Below are positions 5,372 to 19,429 of a DNA stretch of 20,125 nucleotides, piece by piece. The stretch comes from a virus. Made by a program: the position numbers and the translations under genes. Position 1 is the first letter of the stretch. Each line of letters opens with the position of its first letter. The stretch is from positions 1 through 20,125 of IMG/VR virus record IMGVR_UViG_3300025083_000294. One strand, 5' to 3'. Below the pieces are notes generated by a model. That model saw only the letters and a program-made list of their open reading frames with translations, ran no database searches and had not been told where the DNA came from.

Positions 5372-5442
5372 ATCGTAGTAATAATTCGAGTATATTACCT
5401 AAAACAAATATCTTTCTCGAAATTCTACTATGATTTACCGTA
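5372..5442 (-). repeat. 71-bp inverted duplicated element, copy 2
   Basis: Reverse complement of 145-215 with about 89% identity and no gaps. It includes the last five codons of 5428-5643 and most of the spacer before the next gene. In minus-strand orientation it holds short inverted pairs (TCGAG...CTCGA and GTAATA...TATTAC), so it may fold, although the TCGAG pair is not preserved in copy 1. Confidence 0.8.
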
Positions 5443-9678: not shown

Positions 9679-10263
9679 CTACAATGCTTTTAGTTTAGAC
9701 TCAACACTTGATGATAGCTCATACTTCTGTTTAATAGCTTCTAACTTACCACCGCTTTTGATGTACTTTTCGGCTTTTTTGTAAGCCTCATCCTTTACAG
9801 AACTAATTTTTTTGTAAGCCTCATTCTTTACAGAACTAATGCCCTTCTTGTTGGAACTTGTATCCGACTTGCCGTGGTTGTTACTAGCATCACTATCAGC
9901 GGTGTCGTCTATTAGAAATAGATTACCTAAAGAATACTTCTTACCGTAAGATGATGCACTACCAAACTTCTGTGGCATCTGCATACCCTTTTGGTCTAGG
10001 TCTATACCTACTATTGCTACTGCTTCTATGGAGTCCTTGCCATCAGATATTGTGGCTATTGACTTTAGAATTGGAAACGGCTCTGTGCATACGAGTTCTT
10101 CGTTTACTGTTACCGACACTCCTAAATCTAATAGGAATGGTTTAGTTGCCTCAAGGATGTCCTCAGCACTACGGAAGTTATACTTTCCAAAGCTATTATA
10201 CCTTGATTTCTTTGACTTAAATTGCGTTTGTATTGTCGCAAGTTTCTCATTTAGAGTTTTCAT
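9679..10263 (-). CDS. erf: ERF-family single-strand annealing protein
   Basis: 194 aa. It anneals complementary ssDNA during recombination-dependent replication. The ERF core has RYNSFGKYNFRSAEDILEATKPFL (21-44) and GSASSYGKKYSLGNLFLIDD (101-120). The acidic tail is joined by a linker with a two-copy 11-residue repeat, ISSVKNEAYKK and ISSVKDEAYKK (142-163), encoded by a 33-bp tandem repeat at 9775-9840. The Bacteroidota-type promoter at 10291-10321 lies about 30 nt upstream of its ATG. It begins the recombination-replication module with RecE-like nuclease and SSB. Confidence 0.87.
   Translation of the reverse strand: MKTLNEKLATIQTQFKSKKSRYNSFGKYNFRSAEDILEATKPFLLDLGVSVTVNEELVCTEPFPILKSIATISDGKDSIEAVAIVGIDLDQKGMQMPQKFGSASSYGKKYSLGNLFLIDDTADSDASNNHGKSDTSSNKKGISSVKNEAYKKISSVKDEAYKKAEKYIKSGGKLEAIKQKYELSSSVESKLKAL
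9775..9840 (-). repeat. 33-bp tandem repeat inside the ERF gene
   Basis: Two near-identical 33-nt units (9775-9807 and 9808-9840) differ at two sites or so and code for the repeated ISSVKxEAYKK segment of the ERF linker. In frame, so copy number could change without breaking the gene. Confidence 0.85.
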
Positions 10264-14314: not shown

Positions 14315-14869
14315 TTAAAGATTAATATTTGATTTGAATGTATCTACGACATCCTTGTCAATTAAGTTTATTAGAGCCTCTTCAAATGCGTATGATGGCA
14401 CTTTACTTCCGATACTCCAAGTGTTAAGTTCGTTGATGGTGTACTCTCGGTCGTAGGTCTTCCAATCGTATATAGTGTACACCTCGTCTTGCCATTCAAT
14501 AACCCATTCTAATTGACATTTATCATCTTCGGATGCTTCGTTATATGTTGGCTGTCCTAACGTATTAAATAACTCGTAGTACGTTACACCTTTTAGTGTA
14601 TTAGTCTTGTAAGTTCCGTTGGTTAAGTTACCAACTTCGTGTTTCATTAATTTTTTCATTCTATTTGTATTGCTTAATATTACCTCGTGTTGAGGTTCGT
14701 TTTGATTTATAAATTGATTAAGTACTTCATTTATATTATTAAGTGCTTCTTCCACTTTGAGTTCTTGATCAGGTGAAATATCACCACTTTTTAAATTAAA
14801 GTCTTCGCAAATTCCTTCCCAATCTACATTGAGGTATTCGGGTTTTAAATCTTTTTTTGTGTGTTCCAT
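14315..14869 (-). CDS. Conserved viral domain protein (YDWKTYD type)
   Basis: 184 aa. The N-terminal half is helical and acidic. The C-terminal half has YYELFNTLGQPTYNEAS, LEWVIEWQDEVYTIYDWKTYD and TWSIGSKV, a layout I recall from phages and large DNA viruses (LFGxP, EWxIxF, IYDWK, W-x-I-G). No function is known for it. A likely promoter lies just upstream (14909-14939), so it may head a transcription unit. Confidence 0.78.
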   Translation of the reverse strand: MEHTKKDLKPEYLNVDWEGICEDFNLKSGDISPDQELKVEEALNNINEVLNQFINQNEPQHEVILSNTNRMKKLMKHEVGNLTNGTYKTNTLKGVTYYELFNTLGQPTYNEASEDDKCQLEWVIEWQDEVYTIYDWKTYDREYTINELNTWSIGSKVPSYAFEEALINLIDKDVVDTFKSNINL

Positions 14870-14895: not shown

Positions 14896-15186
14896 TTAAT
14901 AATTTGTGCAAATGTAATAATTTTGTTTAATTCCATCAAGAATACTTTCAAGCATATCCTTTACCACCTGATATTGTGATGGGGCTAACTCTCCAAAAAC
15001 AGTAATTTTAGGTTTGTAAAACCGTCCTTTTGATAACTTGGTGATTCGAGATGAAGTAGCCATTCTATTCAAAGCCTTTATAACCGCTTCCTTTTTATTC
15101 ACCTCAGTAATAAAATCTTCATAGGTGAATACATACCCTTTAGGTAGTCTATCTATTGTATTTGATATGTATTCAGTTGTTTTCAT
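14896..15186 (-). CDS. Truncated AbiEi-type winged-helix regulator with swapped C-terminus
   Basis: 96 aa. Residues about 8-78 match the N-terminal winged helix of Bacteroidota AbiEi-like/DUF6088 antitoxin regulators (DRLPKGYVFTYEDFITEV, EAVIKALNRMATSSRITKLSKG, FYKP, GELAPSQYQVVKDMLE). Full-length relatives run to about 200 aa and continue past this point into a C-terminal domain. Here the frame instead runs into ESILDGIKQN, encoded by a 34-bp direct repeat shared with the next gene upstream, and stops after YYICTNY. It may still bind DNA, perhaps as a defence-system or promoter regulator; the antitoxin function of the relatives cannot be assumed. Confidence 0.8.
   Translation of the reverse strand: MKTTEYISNTIDRLPKGYVFTYEDFITEVNKKEAVIKALNRMATSSRITKLSKGRFYKPKITVFGELAPSQYQVVKDMLESILDGIKQNYYICTNY
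14909..14939 (-). promoter_or_regulatory. Candidate Bacteroidota-type promoter
   Basis: On the minus strand the -7 element TACATTTG (14909-14916) fits TAnnTTTG, with TTG (14937-14939) 20 nt upstream. The TTG lies inside the 34-bp direct repeat, while the -7 box lies in the end of the AbiEi-type gene. The second repeat copy lacks a matching -7. A start near 14902 would give about 33 nt of leader for the gene starting at 14869. Confidence 0.5.
14920..14953 (-). repeat. 34-bp perfect direct repeat, copy 1
   Basis: Identical to 15245-15278, read in the same frame. It encodes ESILDGIKQN near the C-terminus of the truncated AbiEi-type protein. The two copies are 325 bp apart, start to start. Confidence 0.93.
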
Positions 15187-15210
15187 TTTTATTTACTCAA
15201 ACAAATACAA

Positions 15211-15250
15211 CAAAATGTCCAGTTTATTTAATAAAAAACTGGACATTTTG
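15211..15250. terminator. Perfect 15-bp hairpin between two genes
   Basis: CAAAATGTCCAGTTT (15211-15225) pairs perfectly with 15236-15250 around a 10-nt A/T loop. It sits over the end of the gene at 15224-15541 and just before the AbiEi-type gene. The stem core is TGTCCAG/CTGGACA flanked by A- and T-runs, so it can work as a terminator on either strand. It separates the two 34-bp repeats. Confidence 0.75.
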
Positions 15251-15541
15251 TTTAATTCCATCAAGAATACTTTCAAGCCTTTCTACAGATTTGTGTATCA
15301 ATTCATCGTATATTACATCGTAAGAATGGTGCAATTTTACATCAGTATTATATATGTTCTTAATTAAATCTTCTTTTAGCCTCTGCTCTGTTATGTTCTT
15401 GATGCCGATTACCTTTGAGTATCCGCTATCATTTATAGCGGACAGATACTTGTTTAAATTAGCTTTAGAGTCAAACTCTCTGTATACGTTACGGTACTGA
15501 TTGTTGTAGTAACTCTTGATTGTTATAATATACTTTTCCAT
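15224..15541 (-). CDS. Unknown early protein sharing a C-terminal repeat
   Basis: 105 aa. The N-terminus is strand-like (KYIITIKSYYNNQYRNVYREF), the middle helical and charged, and the end reads VERLESILDGIKQNVQFFIK. The ESILDGIKQN part is encoded by the 34-bp repeat that recurs in the next gene downstream. The last codons and TAA fall in the hairpin at 15211-15250. I do not recognise the family; the current C-terminus may not be the original one. Confidence 0.72.
   Translation of the reverse strand: MEKYIITIKSYYNNQYRNVYREFDSKANLNKYLSAINDSGYSKVIGIKNITEQRLKEDLIKNIYNTDVKLHHSYDVIYDELIHKSVERLESILDGIKQNVQFFIK
15245..15278 (-). repeat. 34-bp perfect direct repeat, copy 2
   Basis: Same 34 bases and frame as 14920-14953, coding for ESILDGIKQN. 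Bases immediately outside on both sides differ, so the boundaries are sharp. Confidence 0.93.
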
Positions 15542-19387: not shown

Positions 19388-19429
19388 TTAACGTTTTCTT
19401 AACATTGCTTAACGTTTTCTTAACATTGC
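19388..19429. repeat. Two perfect 21-bp tandem units with phased GTTAA sites
   Basis: Units 19388-19408 and 19409-19429 are identical. Each carries two TTAAC sites, giving four in a row at 11, 10 and 11 nt spacing, close to one helical turn. On the transcribed strand they read GTTAA and end about 15 nt upstream of the -33 box. Confidence 0.9.

Follow-up and report, generated by a model that had tools for sequence, protein, structure and literature searches.

Probable capture of an abiE operator with a fragment of abiEi in a phage genome, and solitary copies of the operator in other phages as putative AbiEi-binding sites

AbiE is a type IV toxin-antitoxin system whose antitoxin in S. agalactiae, AbiEi, binds inverted repeats and represses its own promoter (Dy et al. 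2014, PMC3985639). The phage locus described here resembles the S. agalactiae system (PMC3985639) in having the N-terminal winged helix of AbiEi and a palindromic operator in an abiE promoter, negative autoregulation being a feature of S. agalactiae. It differs in that only the operator and the N-terminal half of the antitoxin are present, without the C-terminal antitoxin domain and without AbiEii. The S. agalactiae operator IR1/IR2 reads TGTTGCTTTTA-N27-TAAAAGCAACA, from which the operator of this locus differs in both sequence and spacing.

In logic the nearest relatives appear to be RNA mimics such as Racrs, solitary CRISPR repeat units that serve as RNA anti-CRISPRs (PMC10651486). In both cases a lone nucleic-acid element recognised by a host defence protein is found where the defence genes are absent. 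Racrs, however, are transcribed RNAs behind a promoter, whereas the phage element described here corresponds to an operator in double-stranded DNA and mostly has no promoter. Pseudo-ToxI, as summarised in PMC10651486 from Blower et al. 2012, likewise allows a phage to evade abortive infection, by ToxIN, with a borrowed toxin-antitoxin control element, although that element is an RNA antitoxin mimic and the one described here a copy of a DNA operator, of putative function. Among the open-access papers searched for AbiEi decoys, decoy operators of phages and DUF6088, none described such an element. To our knowledge there is no described kind of element to which a lone DNA operator of a host toxin-antitoxin system, retained by phages, would belong, and operators of this sort apparently constitute an undescribed class of element.

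The window, that is the whole stretch of 20,125 nt analysed, comes from a marine phage, on a viral contig with RNR, primase/helicase and exonuclease genes. It contains a perfect 34-bp direct repeat, itself part of a 39-nt repeat family (D2, 95% identity). By a simple counting estimate a 34-bp match arises by chance within 20 kb with a probability of the order of 1e-12. The features of the locus are as follows.

14896..14919, minus strand: YYICTNY-stop, putatively where the resident gene originally ended, as suggested by the sequence
14896..15186, minus strand: complete truncated AbiEi-like ORF, 96 aa, the last 18 aa being resident-gene sequence, without the antitoxin C-terminal domain
14920..14953, minus strand: 34-bp repeat, downstream copy, forming the end of the truncated AbiEi ORF
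14953..15186, minus strand: first 78 codons of abiEi, captured, encoding the winged-helix DNA-binding domain (N-terminus of DUF6088)
15187..15249, minus strand: 63-bp operator and promoter block, ending just before the ATG
15202..15209, minus strand: TGTATTTG, a Bacteroidetes -7 box (consensus TAnnTTTG) whose start has the +6/+7 offset usually seen in bacterial abiE promoters
15216..15245, strandless: candidate AbiEi operator palindrome TGTCCAGTTT-N10-AAACTGGACA, previously described as a terminator hairpin
15224..15541, minus strand: resident phage gene, 105 aa, of no known family
15245..15278, minus strand: 34-bp repeat, upstream copy, forming the 3' end of the resident gene and abutting the operator

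Both copies of the repeat (14920-14953 and 15245-15278) encode LESILDGIKQN in frame, in the ORFs at 14896-15186 (-) and 15224-15541 (-). A first-pass annotation of the sequence had noted the repeat and its frame in the two genes, and both were confirmed. The present C-terminus of the resident protein, VQFFIK, is encoded by operator DNA. The same arrangement was found in a sister contig (IMGVR_UViG_3300025098_000374) that is 99.7% identical over the region, and the locus is therefore not a one-off assembly error. Elsewhere in the window a 71-nt inverted repeat (145-215 against 5372-5442, 89% complementary, 5.2 kb apart) and two tandem duplications were observed, at 9775-9840 (33-nt unit within an ORF, 97%) and 19388-19429 (21-nt unit, 100%).

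The 96-aa ORF matched Pfam DUF6088 (PF19570) over profile positions 2-71 of 172 (E 1e-7) and, with residues 1-80, positions 1-79 of 202 in the PADLOC AbiEi profile (E 6e-26). Together with an AlphaFold model having the helix and strand order H-E-H-H-E-E (mean pLDDT 73), these matches identify it as the N-terminal winged-helix domain of an AbiEi antitoxin. Foldseek comparison with the PDB gave weak generic winged-helix matches, all at E >= 0.01, and a PDB sequence search returned no AbiEi structure of this subfamily. Full-length bacterial proteins of about 240 aa are roughly 70% identical to the ORF and extend past KDLLE, where the homology of the window protein stops (residues 80-85), and the C-terminal antitoxin domain is absent from the ORF. 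The proposed truncation of the protein at a point where full-length relatives go on was thus borne out by the N-terminal coverage of both profiles and by alignment to host proteins, in which homology ends at the repeat. No AbiEii nucleotidyltransferase adjoins the ORF, the neighbouring gene at 14315-14869 having no Pfam family. As N-terminal domain truncations of the S. agalactiae AbiEi were unstable and gave neither repression nor protection (PMC3985639), the truncated protein may, by analogy, have no activity. If it does bind DNA, its targets could be its own operator and a further copy of the 63-bp block (98%), located before a 57-aa gene in another part of the sister contig (L091:7946-8008). 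The window contig stops short of the matching place, and an HMM built from AbiEii found no match beside the sister-contig copy.

The hairpin between the repeat copies is real as an inverted repeat (arms 15204-15228/15233-15257), with a 17-bp perfect RNA stem of -24.3 kcal/mol and a z score of -5.8. Its stability is compatible with an intrinsic terminator carried along with the captured gene, which is how it had been read at first. This part of the reading did not hold. A terminator scan made no call at the hairpin, which has a loop of 10 nt and lacks the usual T-run after the stem, and the palindrome lies 5' of about 100 bacterial DUF6088 genes and also between divergent genes. RNR-linked phages, moreover, have their own separate GC-rich hairpin with a T-run after the palindrome. 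The terminator was accordingly rejected on the missing call, on the position 5' of abiEi in bacteria and on the conservation of the sequence, and we give it next to no credence. Rfam returned only chance miRNA matches.

In L002, a distant viral locus, the palindrome likewise stands just upstream of a gene for another AbiEi N-terminus, and this prompted a scan for TGTCCAGTTT-gap-AAACTGGACA. Of 124 such palindromes in bacteria, 102 lay upstream of a DUF6088 gene and no more than 300 bp from it, at a distance to the ATG of mostly 30-32 bp (about 31), and the AbiEii toxin gene came next after most of the palindrome-linked DUF6088 genes. The -7 box TAnnTTTG started 5-9 bp past the palindrome, mostly 6-7, in 65 of 94 bacterial loci. 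The palindrome is located in the promoter region, as is the operator of AbiE type IV toxin-antitoxin operons. The exact operator in either variant occurred 14 times, in 13 of 395 Bacteroidia genomes, is strongly conserved across distant bacteria, and in its variant form TGTCAAGTTT...AAACTTGACA also serves some bacterial abiE loci.

Since these loci had been picked by the palindrome, a search of 247 Bacteroidia genomes for DUF6088 was also made independently of it. The subfamily of about 240-267 aa was represented by nine retrieved members (L519-L527), and each had the palindrome 19-31 bp upstream, with 0-4 mismatches. A shorter DUF6088 subfamily had a different palindrome, TGTNNCA-N-TGNNACA, around the -7 box; a strict rule recognised it in 7 of 21 members, and several more had forms close to it. 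Proteobacterial DUF6088 genes on four plasmids had no perfect palindrome with 8-bp arms upstream, and the operator is therefore not universal. Association and spacing together argue strongly that the palindrome is the operator of this AbiEi subfamily. A Flavobacterium sasangense contig (L138:5887-6018) carried the two operator variants, of TGTCC and TGTCA type, about 70 bp apart beside a Bro-N / PDC-S13 gene, with no AbiEi in the locus.

Comparison of the window DNA with bacterial abiE loci placed the start of homology at query positions 81-86 in most matches, the left edge of the palindrome being at 86, while protein homology to AbiEi stops at residues 80-85 and the repeat begins at residue 79. 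As homology starts at the palindrome edge and ends at the repeat, the comparison supports capture of a piece of abiE, which would comprise the operator, the promoter and the first 78 codons of abiEi, into the 3' end of the resident gene. The first-pass annotation, which had an abiEi segment enter between the repeat copies, therefore stands for the structure and, in outline, for the capture, and fails for the identity of the hairpin. Since the ORF runs on into resident-gene sequence, the sequence fits a duplication of 34 bp of the resident gene, in which case the ancestral protein would have ended ...KQNYYICTNY. Short identities are seen at the junctions (AAAAT at the operator edge and CTTGAA at the other), and these would fit a microhomology-type double template switch leaving the 34-bp duplication behind. 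The segment does not resemble a transposon or insertion sequence, as it is about 291 bp long, holds only the AbiEi ORF between the copies and has no bounding pair of inverted repeats. No uninserted relative of the resident gene was found in the viral contigs or in INPHARED; two loci (L478/L479) had only the downstream gene in common with the window. In another viral contig (L002:2941-3135, the same as L110) the operator is followed by 54 AbiEi codons and then by unrelated sequence, which points either to another truncated capture or to a junction made in assembly.

The palindrome scan placed the operator in at least 119 viral contigs, while three control palindromes of similar make-up gave 1 match in total. 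Only 2 of 50 operator-bearing viral contigs had a DUF6088 match and, among the matches listed, exact phage 30-mers lay beside a DUF6088 gene in 3 of 113 cases. It had been suggested that phages capture single DNA-binding domains from host antitoxins; given the rarity of DUF6088 in these contigs it seems to be the operator that is repeatedly acquired instead. The A/T variant TGTCAAGTTT...AAACTTGACA was frequent in phages (58 distinct contexts), although some A/T-type sites inside conserved coding sequence may be due to chance, and the G/C variant was absent from the viral contigs scanned. Chance as the origin of the phage palindromes in general was ruled out by the control palindromes, by reversed-pattern controls and by the background rate of a second operator. 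A link to phage tRNA genes was dropped, as few palindromes lay near tRNAs.

Orphan operators, 77 of which had distinct flanks among the matches listed, lay mostly in intergenic gaps with all gene orientations, and the genes flanking phage operators encoded the major head protein, primase, DnaB helicase, endolysin and RNR. The site might be a true operator by which host AbiEi or the phage-encoded fragment represses a nearby phage gene. The second operator and promoter block before the 57-aa gene of the sister contig speaks for such regulation, as does a promoter-like box kept at the abiE spacing in three phage loci (L066, L007 and L072). Against it, the promoter box was retained in just 3 of the 77 phage orphans, compared with 65 of 94 in bacteria, and the neighbouring genes differ and lie in every orientation. 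We consider regulation of phage genes unlikely, though not negligible.

Related phages differ in whether the site is there at all. After the RNR gene it was present, diverged or absent among relatives (L406, L433, L435, L439), L439 being without the operator in contrast to L433/L435, and the segment with the operator in L372 was missing from its relative L375. As close relatives lack the site, the operator is an accessory element and not an essential phage site. This bears on the possibility that the phage sites serve another ligand and that abiE operators are look-alikes through which phage DNA draws AbiEi away by titration and so sets off the defence. Conservation of the operator across distant bacteria and its usual single copy in phages (one only in 48 of 50 whole viral records) agree with such an arrangement. 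An essential phage site would however be fixed, not missing in close relatives and variable in place, and two AbiEi-type operators would not be expected side by side. We judge it quite improbable that the host senses the phage in this manner.

Such pairs were in fact found. Of 164 distinct phage sites, 15 had the operator pattern of the second AbiEi subfamily no more than 200 bp away, and the rest of the same contigs contained this pattern 3 times in 1.39 Mb, a background from which about 0.15 would be expected against the 15 seen. The 15 paired sites are partly related by descent and represent about 7 lineages, giving P ~ 3e-10 when calculated on lineages. From a site of one AbiEi subfamily it is thus possible to predict sites of another, and this is difficult to account for unless AbiEi-type recognition is what is selected. 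Phage-borne operators are likely to be under selection, and the operator is most likely the selected part of the captured unit. A functionless abiE fragment decaying after illegitimate recombination would account for the window locus, and truncated AbiEi ORFs are found beside the operator in bacterial genomes as well as in L002/L110. Neutral capture does not account for bare exact operators in unrelated phages or for paired operators, however, and is improbable.

The reading we prefer, at somewhat better than even confidence, is that abiE operators are taken up from hosts by phages and retained as putative AbiEi-binding sites, most likely decoys, the window being one capture in which a gene fragment was included. 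As expected of a decoy, the element is identical to a recognition site of a host defence and the defence genes are absent. Operators would plausibly be acquired with parts of abiE, the gene part being lost later, and the window would represent an early stage. A replicating phage genome would multiply the AbiEi sites and titrate host AbiEi off its own promoter. Expression of abiE would then be changed before takeover, for example with more antitoxin supplied before host shut-off, so that the toxin is not released. The least secure step is whether the phage gains from this, as titration could instead induce the toxin: relieving the repressor would raise toxin along with antitoxin. One site in each phage genome is also a small number for titration. 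In a broader form, which we hold more tentatively and rate a little short of even, Bacteroidota phages carry DNA operator decoys captured from abiE promoters, single or in small arrays, for more than one AbiEi subfamily and perhaps for other regulators, as counter-defence at the level of DNA, and the window is an acquisition intermediate. If decoys are what these sites are, bare operators form a layer of counter-defence that is invisible to gene annotation because the element contains no gene. Triggering or silencing of type IV AbiE systems during infection would become testable, and from the operator one could predict which phages encounter hosts with AbiE. Further decoys can be sought with the operator pattern as a query.

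Three non-coding stretches of about 400 bp in viral contigs (L249:8400-8760, L337:1900-2190 and L356:2380-2700) contained several different palindromes, including both AbiEi operator types, and look like operator arrays. A third recurrent palindrome, TGCATGAA-N12/13-TTCATGCA, was observed at 7 viral loci within 300 bp of AbiEi operators and 0 times in 1.36 Mb elsewhere. It had two matches in 395 genomes, one of which (L529:1501-1529) lies beside an XRE-type gene, past which there is a possible Fic-like gene. Sites resembling parS (TGTTYCACGTGRAACA, up to 1 mismatch) occurred 5 times in the 0.10 Mb within 300 bp of phage AbiEi operators (L101:10204, L121:10496, L057:670, L025:4018 and L052:368), and 8 such sites, with up to 2 mismatches, were found in 1.36 Mb away from operators.
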